Source of the DNA: Candidatus Methylomirabilota bacterium
GTDB taxonomy: Bacteria > Methylomirabilota > Methylomirabilia > Rokubacteriales > CSP1-6
Length of the DNA stretch: 33,290 nucleotides
Assembly (NCBI GenBank): GCA_025922915.1
Contig: JAICGY010000002.1
Span: 1-33,290, forward strand
Reading direction: 5' to 3'
In this document: positions 5,435 to 20,160 of the stretch, piece after piece
How positions within the stretch are numbered: the first letter of the stretch is position 1
How the letters are laid out: the number at the start of each line of letters is the position of its first letter
Translations under genes and position numbers: made by a program
The notes under the pieces: model-generated
Databases searched by the model: none
Seen by the model: the letters and a program-made list of their open reading frames with translations, nothing else
What the model was told of the DNA's origin: nothing

Positions 5435-6411
5435 GCGTGGCCCATCACCGCGACGCGAACGACCCGAAGCCCCGGTCCCTCGGCGCCGCCGCGCTGCGCG
5501 AGGCCGACTTTCCCATACCCACGGGGGTGCTGCCGGCCGACGCCCGGAGTCGGCGCACGGAATCGCCGACCATGCAGGCGCTGCGCCGGCTCCGCCGGAG
5601 CACGACCGCCCTCATCGGGCTCGGCATCGTGGTGGCGCTGCTGCTGGTGGCCGCCCTCGCCGACGTGCTGGCCCCGCAGAGCCCGATCGTCAGTGACCAG
5701 ACCCAGACGTTCCGGCTCCCGAGCGCCGAGCACCCGATGGGGACGGACCAGCTCGGCCGCGACATGCTGAGCCGCGTGATCCACGGCTCGCGGGTCTCCC
5801 TGGCCGTCGGCGTGTCCTCCGTGCTGCTCGCCCTCTTCGTCGGCGTCCCCATGGGCATGATCGCCGGGTTCTACGGCGGGCGGGTGGACACGATCGTGAT
5901 GCGGGTGATGGATCTGATCCTCGCGTTTCCCGTCTACCTGCTGGCCATCATCATCATGGTGATCTTCACGCCGACGGCGGGCTGGCTCGGCACCATCAAG
6001 GTGATCGGCGCCATCGCCATCGTGCGCATTCCGATCTACGCGCGCCTGGTCCGGGGCAGCGTGCTCTCGATCAAGGAGAAGGAGTACATCGAGGCGTGCC
6101 GGGCCCTCGGGCAGCGCGGTCCCTCCATCCTCCTGCGCCACGTCCTGCCGAACAGCCTGGCTCCCGTCATCGTGGCCACGACCCTGGGGATCGGCACCGC
6201 CATCATCGTGGAGGCGACCCTGTCCTTCCTCGGCCTCGGGACCCAGCCCCCGACGCCGAGCTGGGGATGGGATCTCAAGGCCAACGTGGCCTTCATCCAG
6301 GCCAACGCCTGGCTGACGATCTTCCCCGGGCTGGCGATCTTCGTCACCGTGCTCGGGTTCAACCTGTTCGGGGACGGGTTGCGGGACGCCCTCGACCCGC
6401 GGCTCAAGTAA
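5431..6411 (+). CDS. dppC: ABC transporter permease (DppC/OppC family)
   Basis: GTG at 5431 overlaps the dppB stop (GTGA). LRRSTTALIGLGIVVALLLVAALADVLAP...HPMGTDQLGRDMLSRVIHGSRVSL...EYIEACRALGQRGPSILLRHVLPNSLAPVIV is diagnostic. The track ORF starts too early. Confidence 0.93.
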   Translation: MSVAHHRDANDPKPRSLGAAALREADFPIPTGVLPADARSRRTESPTMQALRRLRRSTTALIGLGIVVALLLVAALADVLAPQSPIVSDQTQTFRLPSAEHPMGTDQLGRDMLSRVIHGSRVSLAVGVSSVLLALFVGVPMGMIAGFYGGRVDTIVMRVMDLILAFPVYLLAIIIMVIFTPTAGWLGTIKVIGAIAIVRIPIYARLVRGSVLSIKEKEYIEACRALGQRGPSILLRHVLPNSLAPVIVATTLGIGTAIIVEATLSFLGLGTQPPTPSWGWDLKANVAFIQANAWLTIFPGLAIFVTVLGFNLFGDGLRDALDPRLK

Positions 6412-7441
6412 CCGGCCGGCGCTGCCGGGTCTCCGACCCGGGCGCCGGCGCGCCGCGAACGGAGAGTCGCCACAGCGCCAGCCAGGCGCCGAGTCCCATC
6501 GCCGTGAAGGTGACGAGGCTTCCGACGGCGAGGGTGGCCGCGTTGGTGAGGCCCTGGCTGATGTTGCAGCCGTCCCCGAGCAGCGCCGCGCCGCCCATGA
6601 GCAGGCCGCCGGCGAAGAGCTTCACGAGGCTCCATCCCGGAGGGAGCTTCCAGCGGAACTCCCCCGCGAGCCAGGCGCCGCCCCCAGCACCGGTCACCAC
6701 CCCGACGAGCAGGAGCATGCTCCAGGTGATCCGGTTCGGGAACCCCACCATGACGTACGTGAGCCAGTGGCCCGTGTTGGCGCTGAAGGTGATGCCGACC
6801 GGCGAGTCGGCGAGGCTCGAGGCCCACCAGCCCGCCGCGATCAGGAGGCCGACGGCGACACCGGTCAGCGGCCACGGCCACCTGCCGGGCGCGGGCGCGG
6901 CCCGCGCCCGGAGAAGCCAGAGGCCACCCGCCAGCACCAGCGCTGCGACCGCGATCCACGGGGGCACGCCGATGACGCTCGCGAGCGTGGGGGACGCCCC
7001 GTCCACGGAGAGCGTCGGCGCCTGGAGTGTCCGGCGCAGCGGCGCGAGCGCGCCGATCCCCACGACGCTGGCGCCGACGGCGAAGCCGAACAGGACCACG
7101 AGGGCGCCGATGGCGCCCTCACCGACGCGGTACCACGTGCTGGCCGCGCATCCACCCGCGAGGACCATGCCGACTCCGAAGAGCAGCCCGCCCAGTCCGT
7201 TGGCCAGCCAGCGAAACGGGCGGACAGGAAGCTCCACCACGCCCAGGCCCGACAGCAGGTGGACGCCGACGACGGCCACCAGCAGCGCCAGGATCCAGGC
7301 CCGGAGCAGCGTGGCGTCCCCCGCCAGCACGAGGTTCGCCAGCGCCCGGGTCAGACAGAACCCGCCGCGCTGGATGACGTAGCCGAAGAGCGCGCCCAGC
7401 GCCAGCGCGGAGGGGACCATGGCCCAGGGGGGCTCGTCCAT
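6404..7441 (-). CDS. YeeE/YedE family transporter, thiosulfate transporter (TsuA)-like
   Basis: Multi-TM protein with family motifs carrying conserved cysteines: QRGGFCLTRA, LAGGCAASTWYRVGEG, LLGDGCNISQGLTN. Confidence 0.88.
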   Translation of the reverse strand: MDEPPWAMVPSALALGALFGYVIQRGGFCLTRALANLVLAGDATLLRAWILALLVAVVGVHLLSGLGVVELPVRPFRWLANGLGGLLFGVGMVLAGGCAASTWYRVGEGAIGALVVLFGFAVGASVVGIGALAPLRRTLQAPTLSVDGASPTLASVIGVPPWIAVAALVLAGGLWLLRARAAPAPGRWPWPLTGVAVGLLIAAGWWASSLADSPVGITFSANTGHWLTYVMVGFPNRITWSMLLLVGVVTGAGGGAWLAGEFRWKLPPGWSLVKLFAGGLLMGGAALLGDGCNISQGLTNAATLAVGSLVTFTAMGLGAWLALWRLSVRGAPAPGSETRQRRPVT

Positions 7442-7459: not shown

Positions 7460-8347
7460 TCAGGTGCGCCGCCAGCCCACGACGGGCTCCGATGGCTCGA
7501 CCGGCTCCTGGCGGTCGAGCACCCGGAAGACGAGGACGAGCACGGCCAGCATGTCGATGGCGCCGCCGGCGCTCCACATGATGACCCCACCCCACCACTG
7601 GTCCTCCAGAGCGCTCACCCCGGCTCCGGCGGCCAGCGCGGCGTACGTCGGATACAGCACCCATGGACTCATGGTCAGCAGCAGGCCCAGCACGGCCTCC
7701 TGGAAGGCCCCCAGGAGGAGATACGCCATCTGCGCGCCGGGATGGGCGGCCGGACGGAGCCGCGGTGCCGCCCCCAGCAGCGGCCACCAGAAGAGCACGC
7801 CGGCGCCGAAGAGGACCACGTGCTCGAGATCGTGCACGAGCCGATCGCCGAGCGCCGCTTCCCAGGCCACGGGGGCGTGCCAGAGCCAGAGCGCCAGCGC
7901 GGAGAGCAGCCAGGCCACCGGCATGGCGGTGAGCGCCCGCCACAGCCCCCGCAGGGAGCCGCCCGGACGGAGCGGTGCGCCGCCCCAGAGTCGCGCCGGC
8001 CGCGGAAGCCCCCACAGGACGACCGGCAACGGGTTGGCGAGGAGGAGGGCCGGGGCCGCCAGCTTCAGCAGGAGGAGATGCTGGACCTTGTGGGCCGAGA
8101 AGCGCGCGTGCGCCCACTGATCCAGCGGAGAGAGGAGCGCGCCGGCGATCGACGCCACGCCCGCCACCGCGGCGGCGAGACGCCAGGGCGGCGCCAGCGC
8201 CGGCCGCCGCGTCCGCAGGCGCCACCAGCCGAGCGCGTAGAGGCCGAGGGCGACGGCCAGGGGAGCGGCGACCTCGGGCCGCCATCCGCCGGTCAGGGCG
8301 GTGGTCGACTCGGCGAGCGTCGGAAGCGAGCCGGCCGGGTGCGCCAT
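7460..8347 (-). CDS. ctaG: Cytochrome c oxidase assembly protein, CtaG (caa3-type) family
   Basis: From ATG at 8347: MAHPAGSLPTLAESTTALTGGWRPEV...; SPLDQWAHARFSAHKVQHLLLLKLAAPALLLANP, LWHAPVAWEAALGDRLVHDLEHVVLFGAGVLFWWPLLG are CtaG_Cox11/caa3_CtaG-type motifs. Confidence 0.88.
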   Translation of the reverse strand: MAHPAGSLPTLAESTTALTGGWRPEVAAPLAVALGLYALGWWRLRTRRPALAPPWRLAAAVAGVASIAGALLSPLDQWAHARFSAHKVQHLLLLKLAAPALLLANPLPVVLWGLPRPARLWGGAPLRPGGSLRGLWRALTAMPVAWLLSALALWLWHAPVAWEAALGDRLVHDLEHVVLFGAGVLFWWPLLGAAPRLRPAAHPGAQMAYLLLGAFQEAVLGLLLTMSPWVLYPTYAALAAGAGVSALEDQWWGGVIMWSAGGAIDMLAVLVLVFRVLDRQEPVEPSEPVVGWRRT

Positions 8348-8360
8348 GCCGCAGCGCGCC

Positions 8361-8453
8361 TCACTTGCGCCAGGTGAGCACCACGACCCAGGCAAAGAAA
8401 ACCAGCGTGCCCACGAGGAAGATCCCGAACGCCAGCATCTCGATCCCCGGCAT
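8361..8453 (-). CDS. Very small single-TM membrane protein (30 aa), possibly CcoQ-like
   Basis: MPGIEMLAFGIFLVGTLVFFAWVVVLTWRK*: one TM followed by a basic tail, packed between oxidase genes (13 nt before ctaG). Confidence 0.5.
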   Translation of the reverse strand: MPGIEMLAFGIFLVGTLVFFAWVVVLTWRK

Positions 8454-8941: not shown

Positions 8942-10582
8942 CTACCTGCCCTCCCCCACGATCCCCTTGTGGAAACGCACCAGCGCCTTGGCGTCCGTCC
9001 GGTCCGGCGCCGCGGGGTCCAGGGCCAGCCGGGAGCTGCGATGGGCTTCCTGGTCGGGCCGGTTGAGTCGCTCGAGGACGTCGGGGGCCAGCTTCAGCCG
9101 CTCGCCGGTCAGGGGGTCGTTGAACGCGGAGAAGGACAGCACGAAGTAGCTGATGGCCCAGCGATCCTCCTCGCCCAGCGCATCGGCGAAGGAAGGCATC
9201 GGCGTCCCGTCCAGCCCGGTGGTCATGGTCCGGAAGATGTCGCGCACGTCGGCCCCGCCCTTGAACTGGCCCTTCGTGAAGTCGGCGGGCAGGATCGGGA
9301 AGCCCAGGTCGTCCTCGAGCTGGTCCGCCGACGGGCCGTCACCCTTTCCGGTATCGCCGTGGCACTGGAAGCACTTGGCCTTGACGTACCACTCCTTGCC
9401 CCGGGCCAGCAGCTCCGGCGTGGCCGGCGGGGGCTGACCGATGAGGACGGGCGTCTCCGGCTTCTCCTCCTTCCAGCGCTCGGAGAAGGTCTTGATGAAG
9501 GTCAGCACGGCCAGGCGGTCCTTCTCGTGAAGCTCGTGCCAGGTGGGCATGGCCGTGAACCGGACTCCCGTATTGACCGTCCGGAAGAGGTCGCCGTCGG
9601 TGGGCAGCGATCCCGACGGCGTCGTCCGGAACTTGAAGGCGCCCACGACGAAGTTGCGGGGCCGGGGGTTGAGGAAGGTCGCCACGGGTCCGTTGCCGTC
9701 GCCCTTGACGCCGTGACAGCCCACGCACCGACGCTCGTAGACCTCCCGCCCGCGCGCCTCCAGCTCCTCGGTGCGCGGGATCGACATCACGCTGGCCGAG
9801 AGGTTCTGGGGCTCGAAGACGTCCCGCCAGGCCCCCCGGTTCATCCCGAGCTTCTGGATGTAGGCCACGAGCCCGCGGAGCTCCTCGGTGGGCACGACGA
9901 CCGTCAGGATCTTGCCCTTCCAGGTCTCCAGCGCGTTGTAGGGCTCGGGGAGATTCTCGACGTCCAGCACCGGCGTGCCGTCCGTCTGCTCGGCGAAGGC
10001 GAGCCCCTCGGGATTCGGATGGAGCCGGATCGCCCGGTCGGCCCGGCCGCTGAACAGGGCCGCCAGCGCGGGCGAGTCGCCCAGCGCGGCCTGCCCCTCC
10101 TTCTCGACGACCGGCACGCGGGCGGTCCGGAACAGCCAGGGGAAGCGCGGCATGATCGAGTCGGGCACCACCATGGTCGGATCCCAGTGGTGGGCGTAGT
10201 GCCACTGGTCGGAGTACTTGAGGCCCACGCGCGTGAGGTCGGGGCCGATGCGCCGGGTGGACAGCAGATGGGGCCGGTCGTGCGCGTACTCCCCGACCTG
10301 GGAGACCGGCCCCCAGCGGAATTCCTCGCCGGTGACCGGACGCACGAACTGGCTGTGACAGTACCAGCACCCTTCGCGCTGGTAGACGTCGCGGCCCAGC
10401 TGCTCCAGCGGCGTGTACGGCGTGGCGTCGTACCAGACCCACTTGACCTGCCCGAGCTCGTTGCGCACGGCGCGGGTGGCGCGCGTCTCCCGCGACTCGG
10501 GAATGGCGATCGGCAGGATGCCCTGGACGAAGATGGCCAGCGAGATGAAGAAGAACCCGGCGCCCAGAGCGTAGGTCCTCAC
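8942..10582 (-). CDS. ccoO: cbb3 oxidase CcoO subunit fused to a C-terminal diheme (CcoP-like) cytochrome c region; three CxxCH motifs
   Basis: N-terminus: REGCWYCHSQFVRPVTGEEFRWGPVSQVGEYAHDRPHLLSTRRIGPDLTRVG (CcoO/FixO). Then CVGCHGVKGDGNGP and CFQCHGDTGKGDGPS domains. Heme motifs at 10355-10369, 9713-9727 and 9359-9373 (minus strand). Confidence 0.93.
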   Translation of the reverse strand: MRTYALGAGFFFISLAIFVQGILPIAIPESRETRATRAVRNELGQVKWVWYDATPYTPLEQLGRDVYQREGCWYCHSQFVRPVTGEEFRWGPVSQVGEYAHDRPHLLSTRRIGPDLTRVGLKYSDQWHYAHHWDPTMVVPDSIMPRFPWLFRTARVPVVEKEGQAALGDSPALAALFSGRADRAIRLHPNPEGLAFAEQTDGTPVLDVENLPEPYNALETWKGKILTVVVPTEELRGLVAYIQKLGMNRGAWRDVFEPQNLSASVMSIPRTEELEARGREVYERRCVGCHGVKGDGNGPVATFLNPRPRNFVVGAFKFRTTPSGSLPTDGDLFRTVNTGVRFTAMPTWHELHEKDRLAVLTFIKTFSERWKEEKPETPVLIGQPPPATPELLARGKEWYVKAKCFQCHGDTGKGDGPSADQLEDDLGFPILPADFTKGQFKGGADVRDIFRTMTTGLDGTPMPSFADALGEEDRWAISYFVLSFSAFNDPLTGERLKLAPDVLERLNRPDQEAHRSSRLALDPAAPDRTDAKALVRFHKGIVGEGR

Positions 10583-10585
10583 CCG

Positions 10586-12001
10586 TCACACTCGGGCCAG
10601 CCGCTCGAGCGGCTGATGGCGGGCCGGCAGGCTCGGCAGGGGCGTGCCGGCCAGGGCGGTCCGCATGAAGTTGTAGACCAGGAGCGACATGCCGACGTCC
10701 ATCGAGATGCCGGCGAAGGTCCGGATGAGCCAGAAGGGCTTCAGGGTGACCATCGTGTCGACCCACTCGGCGCCCCCGATCAGCATGTAGCCCTGTTGCA
10801 GCCCTTGTGAGGAGAGGACCAGCCCCATCGTGGAGATGCCGAGCGTGATGAGCCAGAAGCTCCAGTTCCCGAGCCGGAAGCTCCAGAGGTCGCGGCCCCA
10901 CAACCGCGGCCACACGTAGATGGCCCCGGCCATCGCCCAGACCACGAAGGTCCCGAACACGGTCAGGTGCGAGTGCGAGATCACGAAGTCCGTGAAATGG
11001 GTGGGGCGCTGGATCCACCGAAGGGCTTCCGTCGAGCCCTGGAAGCAGCCGACGAGGTACATGATGGCCCCCATCATCAGGAACTTGGCCGGGAGGTTGC
11101 GAGAGAAGCCCTGCCAGTGCCCGATCATGGTCCCGAAGAAGTTCTGGAGCACGGTCCACACCGGGATGATGAGCATCATCGAGGCGACGATGGCGATGGT
11201 CTCGGCCCAGTCGGCGATCGGGCTGAAGAGGTAGTGGTGGATCCCCACGAACGGGTAGAAGAACGCCAGCGACCAGAAGCCGATCAGCGAGAGCTTGTGG
11301 CTGTAGATCGGAGCCCGCACCGACGCCGGCAGGAAGTAGTAGATCAGCACGTAGCCCGCGGGGGTGATCCAGAGGCCGACCACGTAGTGGATGAACAGCC
11401 CGTGCAGCGCCGCGTTGTTGATCCCGGCCGCGGTCCAGTAGGGCCCGACCACGAGGAGCACGAGGTTGATGCTGGTCCAGACCAGCGCCCCGATGAGGTA
11501 CCAGAGACTCACGTAGAGCTGGCGCTGCACGCGGCGGCCGATGGTCATGAGGTGCTGCAGGGTCAGCAGCCAGACCAGTGCCACCACCACGACCAGGTTG
11601 GGCAGGGGGATCTCCCCCGCCTCCCAGCCGCGGTTGGCGCCCAGCACCGAGAAGGCCAGGAAGGTGGCGGCCAGGTTGAGGTTCCAGATCCAGAGCAGCG
11701 GATAACCCCAGCGCTCCTTCCACATCGGCACCCCGGCCAGACGCGGGGTCACGTAGTAGATGAGCCCGATGAACAGCGTGGAGAAGGCCCCCCAGATGAC
11801 GCCGTTGACGTGCACGGGCCGGAGCCGGCCGAAGGTGAGCCACGACTGCTCGCCGAGGAAGGCGGGGTAGTTGAACTTCGTGGAGACGATCACCCCGATG
11901 GTCGGTGCGAACATCAGCCAGAAGAAGCCCCAGAGGAGCCATCCCCGGATCAGCCGGGGATCGATGAGCTCGTCGTTCCGGGTTCTCGCAACCTCGTTCA
12001 T
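10586..12001 (-). CDS. ccoN: cbb3-type cytochrome c oxidase catalytic subunit I (CcoN)
   Basis: From ATG at 12001: MNEVARTRNDELIDPRLIRGWLLWGFFWLMFAPTIGVIVSTKFNYPAFL..., RPVHVNGVIWGAFSTLFIGLIYYVTPRL, YPFVGIHHYLFSPI, FVISHSHLTVFGTFVVWAMAGAIYVWPRL. Confidence 0.95.
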   Translation of the reverse strand: MNEVARTRNDELIDPRLIRGWLLWGFFWLMFAPTIGVIVSTKFNYPAFLGEQSWLTFGRLRPVHVNGVIWGAFSTLFIGLIYYVTPRLAGVPMWKERWGYPLLWIWNLNLAATFLAFSVLGANRGWEAGEIPLPNLVVVVALVWLLTLQHLMTIGRRVQRQLYVSLWYLIGALVWTSINLVLLVVGPYWTAAGINNAALHGLFIHYVVGLWITPAGYVLIYYFLPASVRAPIYSHKLSLIGFWSLAFFYPFVGIHHYLFSPIADWAETIAIVASMMLIIPVWTVLQNFFGTMIGHWQGFSRNLPAKFLMMGAIMYLVGCFQGSTEALRWIQRPTHFTDFVISHSHLTVFGTFVVWAMAGAIYVWPRLWGRDLWSFRLGNWSFWLITLGISTMGLVLSSQGLQQGYMLIGGAEWVDTMVTLKPFWLIRTFAGISMDVGMSLLVYNFMRTALAGTPLPSLPARHQPLERLARV

Positions 12002-12027: not shown

Positions 12028-12945
12028 TCAGGCCAGGGGCAGGTCCCGGCTGGCCTCGAACCGCTCGCCACGACTGCTGGTGACCACCACGCGGAGGGGC
12101 CCGCGGTGCCGGGCGCGCACCCGGAAGCCGATGAAGGGGTTGTCGCTGAGCGCCGAGGTCAGCTCGAACCGGCTCAGCGGCTCCGCGCCGTAGCGCACCT
12201 CGATCGTCTGCACGTAGAGGGGCTCGGACTCCTGGACGAACCGGCCCTCGCGAAGGGCCAGGCCCGTGCGGCTGGGATGCCGCATGAGGATCTGGACCAG
12301 CACGAGGGCGTCCCGGCGGACGAGGCCGCGCTTGAGCAGCTCGGGCACCCGGATGACCGGGGCACCGACCTCCTGGGGGGCCACCCGCGTCGGGGCCGGG
12401 CTGGCGCAGCCGCCCACGCCGTCCGGGATGGTGATGGGACGGCTCGCCGACCACCGGCCGTCCCGTGTGCACTCCGCCGTCGCCGTCACCACCGAGCGCC
12501 CCGTGTGCATGCGGCACTGGAACGAGAGGTAGACCTGCCCGTTGGCCGGCGAGAGGTGAAACACTCCCTTGGAGGGAACGGGATCGCTCTCGTTCGTGAC
12601 GTGAATGGTCGTGATGTGATGCGAGGGCTCCATCGGGTGATCCATCCTGATCACGACGGGGACCTTGGCGCCGTCGCCGGCCACGATAGGCACCTCGAGC
12701 CGGGGCCGGTGCAGCCGCTCGAGCGGAGAGGCGGCGTCCCGGTCGTCCAGCGCCCCGGAGTGGCGGCGCGGCGCCGCCGCCCCGGCCGGGCGGGGCGTCT
12801 CGCCGAGGAGCCAGATCGCCCCGGCGGCGAGGCCCAGGAAGCGGCGTCGCGAGCCGAGCCCATCCGGGCGAGACCGGGCCAGGTCGGGCGGCATTCGCGT
12901 GCCCCCGCCCGCCGCCGTCCCGGGCTCGCCCCACCATCGGGTCAT
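12028..12945 (-). CDS. SoxY-SoxZ fusion / SoxYZ-like sulfur carrier with Tat signal
   Basis: SRRRFLGLAAGA Tat signal. SoxY-like region (VPIVAGDGAKVPVVIRMDHPM...GQVYLSFQCRMHTGRSVVTATAE...DGVGGCAS; carrier Cys codon 12406-12408). SoxZ-like region (VLVQILMRHPSRTGLALREG...EVRYGAEPLSRFELTSALSDNPFIGFRVRARHRGPLRVVVTSSRGE). Confidence 0.85.
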   Translation of the reverse strand: MTRWWGEPGTAAGGGTRMPPDLARSRPDGLGSRRRFLGLAAGAIWLLGETPRPAGAAAPRRHSGALDDRDAASPLERLHRPRLEVPIVAGDGAKVPVVIRMDHPMEPSHHITTIHVTNESDPVPSKGVFHLSPANGQVYLSFQCRMHTGRSVVTATAECTRDGRWSASRPITIPDGVGGCASPAPTRVAPQEVGAPVIRVPELLKRGLVRRDALVLVQILMRHPSRTGLALREGRFVQESEPLYVQTIEVRYGAEPLSRFELTSALSDNPFIGFRVRARHRGPLRVVVTSSRGERFEASRDLPLA

Positions 12946-12972
12946 CGTCGGGTCACGTCCGCGCCGATCGGC

Positions 12973-13440
12973 TCAGTGCCGGCCGGTGTCGAGCTTGGAG
13001 CCGCGGTTGGCCCAGTAGATGTAGGCTTCCAGGGCCTTCATCGCCGGCCCGTCCGGATCGATCTTGACGCCCTCGTTGGGCTTCTCGATGCACCAGTTGA
13101 TCATGTCCCGCAGCGTGGCGAACGCGTTCATCTGCTCCTGGAACTTCGGGAACTCGTGCGGATGACTGTCGGAGGCGAAGGGATGGCACATGGCGCACGC
13201 CATCCCGGTGTTGGACAGCTTGATGTTCATCTGCTTCTCGGTGTCGGCGTCCCCGTGAAACAGGAGATCGCCGAGCCGGACCTGCTCCATCAGGACCTGC
13301 TGGAACGCGTCGAGCTGCTCCTGCGAGTGCTTCGCCTTGTGGGCGAGGGCCGGCGCCGGGCCCCAGAGCGAGCTGGCACCAGCCCCCAGCAGTCCGAGCA
13401 GCCCCGCTCCCAGCGCGGCCAGCGCGAGTTTCCCCTTCAT
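12973..13440 (-). CDS. Exported monoheme cytochrome c, SoxA-like
   Basis: Signal peptide, CAMCH at 13183-13197, then EFPKFQEQMNAFATLRDMINWCIEKPNEG...AMKALEAYIYWANRG, which resembles the SoxA pattern (FP..., LexxInxCxxxP, ALxxYixxxsRG). Confidence 0.7.
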   Translation of the reverse strand: MKGKLALAALGAGLLGLLGAGASSLWGPAPALAHKAKHSQEQLDAFQQVLMEQVRLGDLLFHGDADTEKQMNIKLSNTGMACAMCHPFASDSHPHEFPKFQEQMNAFATLRDMINWCIEKPNEGVKIDPDGPAMKALEAYIYWANRGSKLDTGRH

Positions 13441-13459
13441 GGCTCTTCCCCCGGCTCTC

Positions 13460-14602
13460 CTAGTAGGGCCACATGCGATCGGCGATCCTGGGATGCAGGA
13501 TCTGGTTGACGTTGTCCGCCGTGCCGGAATCCACCACGGACTCGGCGAAGACCTCCTTGCGGCCCCACATCACGTACTCGTTCTCGATCCGGCCGGCCGC
13601 GCCGGCCGTGAGCTTCGAGTAGCCCACGCCGTCGAAGTGGTCCCCGGGGTCGGCCCGGATCATGGGCTTGGTCAGCGGGGGCACGCCCTGCGGCGCATAG
13701 GGCCACGGCCAGGACGTGGCCAGCATCCCGATGGAGCGCATCGAGCCGAGCTCGTTGTACAGCACCTGATGCGTGTGGCCGTGGATGTTGGTGACGTTGC
13801 TGAAGGGCTTGAGGATCTCGTTGACCTCCCGCCAGTCGCGCGTCCAGAAGTTCCATGGGGGGTAGTACTCGTAGAGGGGCGTGTGGGTGAAGACCACGAG
13901 CGGCCGGTCCTTGGCCCAGCCCGACACCGTCTGCTGGAGCCACTGGCGCTGCTCGTCGCCGACGCCGGCCCAGGGCCCGGCCACGCTGCCGTCCAGCGTG
14001 GCCATGTGGCCCATCCGCTCCTTCGGCGACATCTTCTTGGCGGACCAGTAGTCGGGGGCGAACCCCACGGTGTTGAGGCCGATGAAGCGCACGCCGTTGT
14101 GGTCGAACGTCCAGGGGGTCTTGCCGAACATCCGTTCCCACTTGGCGCCCATGTCCAGGTACCAGTCGTGCTCACCGGGGATGAAGTGCTTCTTGATGGT
14201 GAGCTCCTTGAGGATGTCCGCTCCCAGGTCTATCTCCACGGGATCCCCGAGCTGCGCCAGGTCCCCGCCGAAGATGAGGAAGTCCGCGGGCGGGCTCATG
14301 GCCTTGATCTCCTTCACGGCCCGCACCGTCTTGTCCACGAACCGGGTGTTGACGTCCTTGGGGTACAGATGGGTGTCCGAGAGCCAGGCGAACTTGAAGG
14401 CGGCCTGCTGGCCGAAGGCCAGGTCGAGCGTGTTGATGACGGGGAACCATCCGACCGAGGCCACGCCGGCCGCGGTGCCGGCCAGGATGGCCTTGTTGAT
14501 GAACAGCCTTCGAGTGATCGCCAGGGATCCATCCGGGCGCCCGCCCGTGTCGATCTCCATGGCGACCTGCCGCGGGTCGAGGTCGACCTCCCGTGGCTCC
14601 AT
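13460..14602 (-). CDS. Tat-exported calcineurin-like metallophosphoesterase
   Basis: From ATG at 14602: ...ITRRLFINKAILAG (Tat motif). Metal-site motifs SDTHLYP, FGGDLAQLGDP, PGEHDWY (GNHD variant), FTHTPLYEYYP, NIHGHTHQ. Confidence 0.88.
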   Translation of the reverse strand: MEPREVDLDPRQVAMEIDTGGRPDGSLAITRRLFINKAILAGTAAGVASVGWFPVINTLDLAFGQQAAFKFAWLSDTHLYPKDVNTRFVDKTVRAVKEIKAMSPPADFLIFGGDLAQLGDPVEIDLGADILKELTIKKHFIPGEHDWYLDMGAKWERMFGKTPWTFDHNGVRFIGLNTVGFAPDYWSAKKMSPKERMGHMATLDGSVAGPWAGVGDEQRQWLQQTVSGWAKDRPLVVFTHTPLYEYYPPWNFWTRDWREVNEILKPFSNVTNIHGHTHQVLYNELGSMRSIGMLATSWPWPYAPQGVPPLTKPMIRADPGDHFDGVGYSKLTAGAAGRIENEYVMWGRKEVFAESVVDSGTADNVNQILHPRIADRMWPY

Positions 14603-14619: not shown

Positions 14620-15339
14620 CTACTTCTTCTTGGCCAGATCGATGGTGACGGTAGCGGTCTCCTTGGCCTTGACGGTGACGGGCGTCTCCACCTCCTCGGT
14701 GTGCTCCTGCCAGGCCACCAGCGTGTACGCTCCCGGCGGCACGTCCTTGATGGTGAACGAGCCATCCTTCCCGGTGACGGCATAGTAGGGGTTGTCGGCC
14801 ACGTAGACCCAGGCCAGCATCCAGCCGTGGGCGTCGCACTCGACGCGCATGATGCCGGTCTTCTTGATCGGCTTCTTGATGGTCTGGCCCTGGATGGGCA
14901 GGGCGACGTTGAAGGCCGTCAGCTTGCCGAAGAAGCCGTGAGTGTTGTGGAGCACGGGATCCGAGTTGTGGATGGCCACGTCGCCCATCCGGATCACCTG
15001 GACGTGGGGCAGGAACCGGCAGTCCTTGTTGTCGATCACCGGGGGCTGGGCCGGTTTCTCCCAGGCCTTCCCCCTCTCCACGCCCTTGAGATACACGAAG
15101 CTGCCTTCCACCGCCTTGTCCGGGCCCAGCAGGATGCGCGCCTGCTCGCGAATGCCACCGCACACCTCCTTGTCCTTGGTGGGGATGATCTTCCGGGGCG
15201 ACGGGACCGCTCCGGTGAACGTCACCGTGCCCTTGATGGTCCCCCCATCGGTGACCGAGATCGCCTGATAGCTCGCGGCCGGCCCGCTCGACAGCAGCAG
15301 GCCGGTCAGCAGGGTGACGGGTCCGATGAGCCGACGCAT
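14620..15339 (-). CDS. Exported carboxypeptidase-regulatory-like / cupredoxin-like protein
   Basis: From ATG at 15339: signal peptide MRRLIGPVTLLTGLLLSSGPAASYQA, GTIKGTVTFTGAVPSPRKI, VLHNTHGFFG, MRVECDAHGWMLAWVYV (Cys/His/Met cluster), then DGSFTIKDVPPGAYTLVAWQE. Confidence 0.8.
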   Translation of the reverse strand: MRRLIGPVTLLTGLLLSSGPAASYQAISVTDGGTIKGTVTFTGAVPSPRKIIPTKDKEVCGGIREQARILLGPDKAVEGSFVYLKGVERGKAWEKPAQPPVIDNKDCRFLPHVQVIRMGDVAIHNSDPVLHNTHGFFGKLTAFNVALPIQGQTIKKPIKKTGIMRVECDAHGWMLAWVYVADNPYYAVTGKDGSFTIKDVPPGAYTLVAWQEHTEEVETPVTVKAKETATVTIDLAKKK

Positions 15340-15382: not shown

Positions 15383-16213
15383 TCAGAGCTGGTCGTGAGC
15401 GCGCGAGCCGGGCGGCAGATCGATGCGGTCCTCGCGCGAATGGCAGACGAGGCACGAGCGGCCGCCGATCTCGGACACCAGCGAGTAGGCGATGCCGTGG
15501 GAGGCCCAGACGATGACGTCGTAGCCCTGGTGCGTGACCATCTTGAACTTCGGAGCGGCGTCGATGCCGAGGTCCCGGTATTTCTCGAACGGGATGACGA
15601 AGAGGGAGATGTCCCGTCCATCCATCTTGAAATGGAGAGCGGCGACCTCCAGGTCGCCCAGGTTGGCGATTCGCCCGCCGACCAGGTTGAGGTCGTCCCG
15701 CGTGAGCGTGGGCAGGTTGACGTTGAAGTTGAGCCGGGCCTTGAACCATTCCTCGGCGGCCCGGGGCGTGACCTCGCTGATGTCGAGGGGGAGGGTGCCG
15801 AGGGCCAGCTTGCGGTGCTGCTCGACGGAGGCGGCGGCCAGGTGCACGAGCGGCGATCGGTCCAGCCGCCAGAGCTGCACGCCGTCGGACGTCAGCCCGG
15901 TCTGGACCCCGAACCCGGCCAGGAGGCCGGCGACGAACAGCGCGCCGCCGGCCACGAGGTGCCGTCCCCACCGCCAGGCCGGCGCCACCGGCACGGTGTC
16001 GAGCATCTGGAGGACCCGAGCCCGCAGCCGCTCGGGCACCGGGTCCGGCCGGAGGGGGGCGATGTACTCGTCGGCGAAGCTCCGCTCCAGGTCCACCAGC
16101 CTCTGGCAGCCCCAGCAGCCGGCGAAGTGGTCCTCCAGGAGCGCGCGCTCCTCGTCCGGAAGCTCGCCGTCCAGATACTCGAAGAGACGGGCGCGCGCCT
16201 GCTTACAGAGCAT
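15383..16213 (-). CDS. Membrane-anchored zinc-finger anti-sigma factor with C-terminal CxxCH
   Basis: N-terminal ZAS motif (HFAGCWGC), single TM (HLVAGGALFVAGLLAGFGV), C-terminal sensor region ...VWASHGIAYSLVSEIGGRSCLVCHSRED. Start overlaps the sigma stop by 11 nt. Confidence 0.88.
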   Translation of the reverse strand: MLCKQARARLFEYLDGELPDEERALLEDHFAGCWGCQRLVDLERSFADEYIAPLRPDPVPERLRARVLQMLDTVPVAPAWRWGRHLVAGGALFVAGLLAGFGVQTGLTSDGVQLWRLDRSPLVHLAAASVEQHRKLALGTLPLDISEVTPRAAEEWFKARLNFNVNLPTLTRDDLNLVGGRIANLGDLEVAALHFKMDGRDISLFVIPFEKYRDLGIDAAPKFKMVTHQGYDVIVWASHGIAYSLVSEIGGRSCLVCHSREDRIDLPPGSRAHDQL

Positions 16214-16775
16214 GGCCGTTCCGGGCGCGCGCCGAGATCGCCGGGGCCGCCTCCTGGAGCGCGAGCCGGACGAGATTGCGGCCCCGGAAGAGGCGTGACA
16301 TGACCGTGCCCACCGGTGCGCCGACGACGGTCGCGATCTGCTGGTACGACAGTCCCTCGATCTCGCGCAGCTCGACGACCTCCCGGAGGACGACGGGCAG
16401 GCGCCGGATGGCGTCCCGCACCTCCTGCAGGGCCGCCCGCCGCAGCAGGATCTCCTCCGGGTTCAGCGGGACCGGGTAGAGCAGCACGTCCCGGACCGCA
16501 TCCGCAGCGACCCCCTCCTGGGAATCACGGTCCTCGAGCGGGCGCGCCCGGCGGCGGCGCATACGGTCGATCTCGGCGTTCTTCATGATCGTCAGCATCC
16601 AGACCTTGAAGCTCAGCTGAGGCTTGTAGGAGGAGAAGGCTTGCAGGGCCTTGAGGAGCGATTCCTGAAGGAGATCCTCGGCTTCCGCGTCGTTCCGGCT
16701 CAGCAGCCGGGCGTACCCGTAGAGCGTGGGCAGATGGCTCAGAGCGAGGTCCTGGAACGCCGATTCGTGCTCCAT
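16203..16775 (-). CDS. ECF (sigma-70 family) RNA polymerase sigma factor
   Basis: Region 2 (YARLLSRNDAEAEDLLQESLLKALQAFSSYKP...FKVWMLTIMKNAEIDRMRRRR) and region 4 (LPVVLREVVELREIEGLSYQQIATVVGAPVGTVMSRLFRGR). Confidence 0.95.
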   Translation of the reverse strand: MEHESAFQDLALSHLPTLYGYARLLSRNDAEAEDLLQESLLKALQAFSSYKPQLSFKVWMLTIMKNAEIDRMRRRRARPLEDRDSQEGVAADAVRDVLLYPVPLNPEEILLRRAALQEVRDAIRRLPVVLREVVELREIEGLSYQQIATVVGAPVGTVMSRLFRGRNLVRLALQEAAPAISARARNGHAL

Positions 16776-18669: not shown

Positions 18670-20160
18670 TCAGAGGTCCCCCAGCCCGTACTCGTCCCAC
18701 CGGGCGCGCACGCGCGCCTCGTCCTCCGGCGCCGGGCGGACGGTGGGCGGGAACGGCTGGCCGTCCCACTCCGCCCGCCGCTCGAAGGTCCAGTTGCGGG
18801 TGGCGTCGATCAGCACCCGGTTCCAGAGCCCGGTGCCCAGCCGCGTGGTGTCCCGGTCGTGCAGCGGCGTGGAGGGATCGATGGGCGAGCCGAAGATGCC
18901 CGGGAACACGACCAGCCCCCCGGCGCCGGCGTTGACGCGGTGGGCGATCGCCCAGTCGATCTGCTCGTAGGACGAGATGTCGATGTCGTCGTCGACGACG
19001 ATCACGTGCTTGTAGCGGTACTGGGCGGCGCTCGAGCCCCACAGCGCGGCCGCGATCTGCTTGGCCTGGCCCTGGTACGCCTTGCGGATCTGCACGCAGA
19101 TGTTCACCCCGTTGGTGATCGGATGGATGTAGACGTCGCGGACCCCCGGGATGCCGGCGGCGGTGAGGATGTTCCAGGCGATCGCCGCCCGCTGGACCGA
19201 CGACATGACGCTGTTCTCGCTGTAGGAGCCGGGGAGCGTGCCTTCCAGGCAGCCCTGGAAGATGGGGTCACGCCGGTGCGTGATGGCGGTGATCTGCATC
19301 GTGGGCCGGGGCGTCGGCACGTCGGAGACGTAGCCCGTGAACTCGCCGAACGGGCCCTCCGTCTCGTACGTCGCGGGGTCGTCGGAGATGACCCCCTCGA
19401 TGACGATCTCGGCGGCGGCCGGGACCTCGAGGTCCACCGTCTCGCAGCGCACCAGCTCGGCGGGCTCGCCCCGGTAGGCGCCCATGACGTCCCACTCGCA
19501 GACGCCGGCCGGGATCGGCGAGCCGGCGAGGAAGGGCATGATCGGGTCCCACCCGATCACGCAGGCGACCGGCATGGGCTCGCCCCGCTGCGCGTATTTC
19601 AGGAAGTGCGCGCCCCAGTGCTGGCCGCCCTTGATGAGCAGGAAGGGCGTCGTGTCCTTGCGCCCGATCATGCCCCGGTAGATGCCGACGTTCATCACCC
19701 GCGTGTCGGGATCCCGCGTGACGACGCCCGAGAAGGTGTGGATGTAGCGTCCGCCCTCCCGGAAGTTCCAGCGCGGCACGGGGAACTGCGTCTGGTCGAT
19801 GGCGGCACCGGTGACGACGACCTCCTTGACGGGTCCCGTCGGCACGATCCGCGGGGCGATCGTCTCGCGGTTCTTGCGCATCACGTGCTGCACCAGCTCG
19901 GGGTTCGCGACGTCCCGGGGGAAGCCGAGCGCCATGGCCAGGAGGCGCCGGTCGCCCAGCACCCCCGTGACGAGCTTCGTGCACCGCCCGGTCCGGTAGC
20001 CCTTGATGCGCTCGAAGAGGAGCGCCGGCCCCTTCTTCTCCAGCGTCCGGCGGGCGATGGCGCCCAGCTCGCGGTCCCAGTCCACCTCGGCGGTGACGCG
20101 GCGGAGCTCGCCTTCCTTCTCCAGCCGCGCGAGCCACTCGCGCAGATCCACGAATCCCAT
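18670..20160 (-). CDS. UbiD family (prFMN-dependent) decarboxylase
   Basis: ATG at 20160: MGFVDLREWLARLEKEGELRRVTAEVDWDRELGAIARRTLEKKGPALLFERIKGY...; RVMNVGIYRGMIGRK, YETEGPFGEFTGYVSDV (catalytic Glu-rich motif), ITHRRDPIFQGCLEG. Confidence 0.94.
   Translation of the reverse strand: MGFVDLREWLARLEKEGELRRVTAEVDWDRELGAIARRTLEKKGPALLFERIKGYRTGRCTKLVTGVLGDRRLLAMALGFPRDVANPELVQHVMRKNRETIAPRIVPTGPVKEVVVTGAAIDQTQFPVPRWNFREGGRYIHTFSGVVTRDPDTRVMNVGIYRGMIGRKDTTPFLLIKGGQHWGAHFLKYAQRGEPMPVACVIGWDPIMPFLAGSPIPAGVCEWDVMGAYRGEPAELVRCETVDLEVPAAAEIVIEGVISDDPATYETEGPFGEFTGYVSDVPTPRPTMQITAITHRRDPIFQGCLEGTLPGSYSENSVMSSVQRAAIAWNILTAAGIPGVRDVYIHPITNGVNICVQIRKAYQGQAKQIAAALWGSSAAQYRYKHVIVVDDDIDISSYEQIDWAIAHRVNAGAGGLVVFPGIFGSPIDPSTPLHDRDTTRLGTGLWNRVLIDATRNWTFERRAEWDGQPFPPTVRPAPEDEARVRARWDEYGLGDL

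Follow-up and report, generated by a model that had tools for sequence, protein, structure and literature searches.

Do three consecutive genes for exported proteins in a Methylomirabilota genome encode a minimal Sox cycle, or do they belong to a different and larger unit? The question is raised by a window of 33,290 nucleotides (the whole stretch of DNA that was analyzed) from a soil-dwelling Candidatus Methylomirabilota bacterium, whose genome assembly consists of 3.97 Mb in 509 contigs and is 89% complete. A sequence-only reading of the window proposed that a metallophosphoesterase (MPE), a cytochrome (here called CytA) and a fused SoxY-SoxZ carrier form a three-protein reduced Sox cycle, with MPE in the place of SoxB. 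The trio at 14602-12028 is real, in that Pfam searches recovered the domains of all three proteins (Table 1). The genes run in the order MPE-CytA-SoxYZ on the minus strand, separated by 19 bases (MPE/CytA) and 27 bases (CytA/SoxYZ), and the gene for a cbb3-type oxidase, a low-oxygen enzyme, starts 26 bases downstream of SoxYZ. The operon order is ECF sigma factor, anti-sigma factor, cupredoxin, MPE, CytA, SoxYZ and cbb3-type oxidase, followed by genes for CtaG and a YeeE/TsuA-like transporter. The window also encodes a UbiD-type decarboxylase with all three UbiD domains (18673-20139, minus strand), which is unrelated to the cluster.

Table 1. Genes of the cluster, with positions in the window.
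Feature	Position	Strand	Domain evidence
ECF sigma factor, cluster head	16203..16775	-	Pfam Sigma70_r2/r4_2
Anti-sigma factor (zf-HC2), C-terminal CLVCH	15383..16213	-	Pfam zf-HC2
Exported cupredoxin-like protein with carboxypeptidase-regulatory-like domain	14620..15339 (start inferred)	-	CarboxypepD_reg
Tat-exported metallophosphoesterase (MPE), GEHD variant	13460..14602	-	Metallophos
CytA, monoheme SoxA/TsdA-type cytochrome c	12973..13440	-	SoxA-TsdA_cyt-c
Fused SoxY-SoxZ carrier, internal GGC (Cys180), Tat signal	12028..12945	-	SoxY+SoxZ
cbb3-type oxidase catalytic subunit (CcoN-like)	10586..12001	-	COX1 E=1.6e-65
CcoO fused to two further cytochrome c domains	8942..10582	-	FixO + two Cytochrom_C stretches
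CtaG-like oxidase assembly protein	7460..8395	-	Caa3_CtaG E=5.5e-53
YeeE/TsuA/SoxT-like sulfur-compound transporter	6404..7441	-	Sulf_transp E=4.4e-66

The carrier matches the Pfam SoxY (E=7.5e-18) and SoxZ (E=1.8e-14) models, and Gly179-Cys180, internal rather than C-terminal, are kept in 24 of 24 relatives, so that the proposed SoxY-SoxZ fusion with an internal GGC carrier cysteine is borne out. An invariant Tat-type RR is present as well. When compared with TIGR04557, the model for the quinoprotein-dehydrogenase-associated carrier, the protein fails the cut-off of 140 with a score of 99.6 bits, and the other fused SoxYZ proteins tested also fall under it (83-109 bits). The SoxY half additionally matches desulfoferrodoxin/superoxide reductase models (E=5.8e-9), probably by virtue of a shared beta-sandwich fold. 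Another type of fused SoxYZ, with an identity of about 42%, occurs at three loci (L126, L127 and L128, in genomes G020, G016 and G014), where its neighbors are NrfD-like membrane subunits, a MoeA-like gene or a YeeE/SoxT-like transporter and, in L126, a YncE-like propeller.

CytA has a single heme site, CAMCH, and passes the Pfam SoxA-TsdA_cyt-c model (PF21342; E=9.7e-9, 35.6 bits against a cut-off of 27). Compared with solved structures, its profile hit SoxA and TsdA alone (E=2e-11 and 6e-6), and a fold search ranked TsdA first and SoxA next, at a weak E of 0.014. The extra cysteine, Cys117 of an INWC motif, is conserved in 35 of 35 relatives and aligns with Cys96 of TsdA and with the matching cysteine of the first SoxA heme domain (SoxA 1h31, TsdA 4wq7). 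Cys96 is an axial ligand of the catalytic heme of TsdA, and conjugation of thiosulfate to the axial cysteine is the proposed first step in both TsdA and SoxAX (PMC6879331). By its alignment and its conservation across the family, Cys117 is the predicted axial heme ligand of CytA, and the description of a CAMCH cytochrome with an extra INWC cysteine can now be sharpened to a SoxA/TsdA-type protein. Some cautions apply to this assignment. The arginine four residues before Cys96 of TsdA is replaced by methionine in CytA, and the match to the SoxA equivalog model TIGR04484 fails, reaching 29.6 bits against a cut-off of 110 and covering only positions 12-96 of 212. The second heme domain of SoxA is the catalytic one, whereas CytA fits the N-terminal SoxA heme domain better (30.6 versus 13.1 bits). 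CytA was absent from the phage records searched.

MPE matches Pfam Metallophos (E=1.9e-12) and no further Pfam domain, the 5'-nucleotidase C-terminal domain expected of a SoxB included, and its Tat RR is conserved in 47 of 47 sequences, in agreement with the earlier assignment of a Tat-exported calcineurin-like phosphoesterase. Residues D76, H78, D114, E144, H145, H240, H276 and H278 are likewise conserved in 47/47. These include all of the usual metal ligands except the Asn of GNHD, which is replaced by Glu (GEHD) throughout, even in distant paralogues whose neighbors are an ECF sigma pair and not CytA. The neighbors of MPE in both sequence and fold are GpdQ, Rv0805 and the purple acid phosphatases, with GpdQ as the first fold match and SoxB absent among the 50 best. 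We rejected MPE as a SoxB homologue on the grounds that the source genome has no TIGR04486 match and that the nearest sequences and folds are of the GpdQ type. A SoxB-like role for the protein is plausible as a hypothesis. Two apparent leads were set aside: a 643-aa ORF in L036 that looks like a cupredoxin-MPE fusion is likely a frameshift, because the C-terminus of the cupredoxin is disrupted at the junction, and an MPE found by text search in a paper on arsenite stress belongs to an arsenic locus and is uninformative for this cluster.

Is there another Sox system that could serve the same cell? The SoxB model TIGR04486 found no match in the source genome (89% complete), nor in any Methylomirabilis genome searched, including a closed one (G045). 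A complete sox operon elsewhere in the source genome had been named as evidence against a reduced cycle; none was found, and SoxB, a second SoxYZ and any SoxA/TsdA-type cytochrome other than CytA were all undetected there. CytA is also the sole PF21342 match in the closed Methylomirabilis genome. No SoxX gene was seen within the locus, and a weak SoxX match in CcoO (TIGR04485, 30.5 versus 61 bits) was judged to be a partial cytochrome match. More broadly, true SoxB is absent from 17 of the 21 genomes that have a SoxYZ-bearing cluster and present in four, and in at least two of these four (G012 and G031) SoxB has its own SoxYZ genes on the same contig. The idea that the cluster strictly replaces SoxB finds no support in the window's own family, where SoxB occurs in 5/9 genomes with the cluster and 19/27 genomes without it (Fisher p=0.44).

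When an MPE alignment was used to scan genome contigs, at least 476 relatives were confirmed, and among the 80 loci kept from these, CytA was detected in 74 (several of the remaining loci are cut by contig ends), cupredoxin in 63, the oxidase subunit CcoN in 53 and a di-heme peroxidase (CCP/MauG) in 15. The constant unit across many phyla is MPE plus CytA, normally with cupredoxin and oxidase, while SoxYZ is optional; the trio is not the stable unit. Two main arrangements recur. The cupredoxin-MPE-CytA-oxidase type is found in Methylomirabilota, Proteobacteria, Nitrospirota and others. The CCP-MPE-CytA type is found in myxobacteria, Kryptonia, Acidobacteria and Nitrospinae, and its members group together as a single clade with support of 95/100. 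A CCP/MauG di-heme protein (L130:10905-11930) stands directly after SoxYZ, in the position of the oxidase, in the closed Methylomirabilis genome. A multiheme protein that by eye resembles a photosynthetic reaction-center cytochrome lies near the cluster in two alphaproteobacteria (L082 and L075), hinting at a different electron acceptor there.

The accessory genes show conservation of their own. His132, Cys169, His172 and Met175 of the cupredoxin are conserved in 82 of 82 sequences, the ligand pattern of a type-1 copper site (His...Cys-x2-His-x2-Met), which the protein upstream of MPE is accordingly predicted to carry. In Methylomirabilota the ECF sigma gene adjoins the MPE cluster; in Tectomicrobia, Kryptonia and Acidobacteria the two are divergently oriented. 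The anti-sigma factor ends in a C-terminal CxxCH in all 22 cluster copies listed, from Methylomirabilota to Kryptonia and Acidobacteria, and this motif is missing from the one copy listed beside a distant MPE paralogue; it is possible that the cluster anti-sigma factor is a heme- or metal-sensing regulator. The CcoN-like subunit scores 194 bits with the ccoN model, below the equivalog cut-off, and the CcoO with extra cytochrome c domains has full-length relatives in rhizobia, gamma- and betaproteobacteria. The YeeE-type transporter scores 165 bits with the TsuA model, again below the cut-off.

The addition of SoxYZ to the MPE-CytA cluster has taken at least two different forms. In Methylomirabilota, Tectomicrobia, Entotheonella and a number of unclassified lineages, a fused gene is part of the operon. 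In rhizobia (Bradyrhizobium, Mesorhizobium and Sinorhizobium) the cluster ends instead in convergent fccB-fccA-soxZ-soxY genes, as annotated on a plasmid of S. meliloti; here SoxY keeps its C-terminal cysteine in an NGC motif (DGC in one case), and FccB has the domains of flavocytochrome c sulfide dehydrogenase (FccAB: PF21706/PF09242). One Xanthobacteraceae genome has soxYZ without fccAB, and in SAR324 soxYZ-SCO-fccB lie upstream of the cluster. The fused SoxYZ state changes at least three times on the MPE tree, changes that may be gains and losses. Genome-wide searches found no SoxY in genomes of the CCP type or of the Nitrospirota/Syntrophobacterales type, and the existence of such clades implies that SoxYZ is a partner in some lineages and is not required by MPE-CytA.

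How, then, should the trio be interpreted? In the strict form of the original proposal it is a closed cycle, in which CytA would load thiosulfate onto the SoxYZ cysteine and MPE, as a SoxB analogue dedicated to this task, would accept the SoxY arm. The tight gene order, the invariant carrier cysteine, the lack of SoxB in both the source genome and the closed Methylomirabilis genome, and the standing of CytA as the only cytochrome of its type in the source genome are all consistent with such a cycle, as is the known occurrence of fused SoxYZ beside SoxH, which has been reported as a stand-in for SoxB in Sulfurimonas (PMC11237559). However, whole clades have MPE and CytA without any SoxY, so MPE cannot be purely a hydrolase of the SoxY arm; moreover, SoxB co-occurs with the cluster in several genomes, in at least two of which it has separate SoxYZ genes next to it, and MPE lies outside the SoxB family. 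We regard the closed cycle as unlikely, but it may still hold as a derived use in the SoxYZ-bearing subset. The three-protein cycle fares unevenly: a SoxA/TsdA-type cytochrome that is the only one of its type in the source genome, an invariant carrier-type cysteine, the repeated addition of SoxYZ to the cluster and the absence of SoxB in 17/21 genomes support it, while the clades without SoxY, the family of MPE and the p value of 0.44 do not, and the earlier reading of the cluster is reasonable but too narrow.

Perhaps MPE performs no sulfur chemistry at all, being an ordinary periplasmic phosphodiesterase or phosphatase, with CytA as an electron carrier for the oxidase and SoxYZ as a hitch-hiker. 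This would fit the GpdQ, Rv0805 and purple acid phosphatase relatives, the peroxidase-type cluster without SoxY, and a PhoX phosphatase gene that is also found in the L129 region. The earlier reading had itself named a clustering of MPE with phosphodiesterases that lack Sox neighbors as a point against it, and this is partly the case. Yet the near-constant pairing of MPE with a SoxA/TsdA-type cytochrome over many phyla, the invariant Glu at the position of the metal-site Asn in GpdQ, and the recruitment of SoxYZ in different arrangements make such a reading improbable. In many genomes the trio has genes for an oxidase, the FixI copper ATPase, SCO and CtaG around it, and so one might also suppose that MPE, CytA and cupredoxin serve the adjacent cbb3-type oxidase in its maturation or in copper delivery. 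We consider this very unlikely, considering that the peroxidase-type clusters and the closed Methylomirabilis genome have MPE-CytA with no adjacent oxidase, that CytA belongs to the SoxA/TsdA type, and that SoxYZ and FccAB recur.

The reading that we favor, with a confidence approaching an even chance, is that the cluster encodes a sulfur-linked respiratory module with MPE and CytA as its core. It is favored because CytA points to SoxA and TsdA only, in both sequence and fold, and its putative axial cysteine is invariant; because the adjacency of MPE and CytA is near constant, the cupredoxin ligands are fully conserved (82/82) and the oxidase is present in 53 of the 80 loci kept from at least 476; because at least two arrangements reflect a recruitment of SoxYZ, which in rhizobia comes together with FccAB; because the operon includes a SoxT-like YeeE transporter; because the precedent of TsdA with SoxB needs no SoxYZ (PMC7608252); and because 17 of the 21 genomes whose cluster includes SoxYZ lack SoxB. 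Arguing against the module are the phosphodiesterases that are the nearest solved relatives of MPE, the better fit of CytA to the N-terminal SoxA domain and its Arg-to-Met change relative to TsdA, the peroxidase-type (myxobacteria, Kryptonia, Acidobacteria) and Nitrospirota-type clades without SoxY, and the distant MPE paralogues that stand by an ECF sigma pair without CytA.

From the gene content we infer a substrate, an order of reactions and an electron route for the sulfur-linked module. CytA, with its predicted His/Cys heme, would oxidize a reduced sulfur compound or accept it as a conjugate of Cys117, with thiosulfate as the leading guess, or would hand the compound to a partner; in lineages with SoxYZ this partner might be the SoxYZ cysteine, and in those that lack it a small molecule. 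The dimetal MPE would then hydrolyze an oxidized end group, a step carried out by SoxB elsewhere. Electrons would flow via CytA and cupredoxin to the adjacent cbb3-type oxidase or, in other lineages, to the di-heme peroxidase. A more specific version of this module is possible but doubtful: a SoxB-independent route of sulfur oxidation, in which the Glu-substituted GpdQ-type MPE would be the sulfate-releasing hydrolase and would act, together with the monoheme SoxA/TsdA cytochrome, on intermediates that are either free or bound to SoxYZ. Such a route would supply its own dedicated cbb3-type oxidase in Methylomirabilota, on rhizobial symbiotic plasmids, in purple sulfur bacteria and in Nitrospirota. 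If true, many bacteria scored as thiosulfate-negative for lack of soxB would have another route, sulfur oxidation would gain a new hydrolase fold, and SoxYZ genes without SoxB would be explained. Carriers include nodule rhizobia (for example, on the Sinorhizobium meliloti plasmid) and relatives of the nitrite-dependent methane oxidizers. The thing to study is the module, rather than the trio.

A search of the open-access literature returned no description of this cluster and nothing relevant on an MPE with cbb3 or thiosulfate, only precedents for fused SoxYZ, and the cluster is apparently uncharacterized. The closest published parallel is in Erythrobacter flavus 21-3, where TsdA and SoxB turn thiosulfate into zero-valent sulfur via tetrathionate without SoxYZ (PMC7608252). 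Both systems would combine a SoxA/TsdA-type cytochrome with a His/Cys heme (predicted here) and a dimetal hydrolase, and SoxYZ is dispensable; however, TsdA is di-heme and its partner is a true SoxB, whereas the pathway proposed here would use a monoheme CytA and a GpdQ-type MPE. A second parallel is the fused SoxYZ found with SoxH, an unrelated metallohydrolase, as in SoxYZ-S2/S4 (PMC11237559) and PP_2677/PP_2678 (PMC12997753). Such pairs beside PQQ dehydrogenases (TIGR04557) share with our cluster the placement of fused SoxYZ next to a non-SoxB metallohydrolase, but here MPE is not SoxH, the carrier scores below the family cut-off (99.6 versus 140 bits), and the partners are a SoxA/TsdA-type cytochrome and an oxidase rather than an alcohol dehydrogenase. 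The truncated Sox system (SoxYZ, SoxAX and SoxB without SoxCD) has a similar carrier cysteine and a SoxA-type heme domain; in our cluster, by contrast, SoxB was not found, no SoxX was seen in the locus, the cytochrome has a single heme domain, and a fused SoxYZ with an internal cysteine is tied to cupredoxin and a cbb3-type oxidase. Finally, MPE has the fold and metal-ligand pattern of the class III phosphodiesterases GpdQ and Rv0805, from which it differs in being Tat-exported, in the change of Asn to Glu within GNHD (GEHD), and in its genetic tie to a cytochrome.
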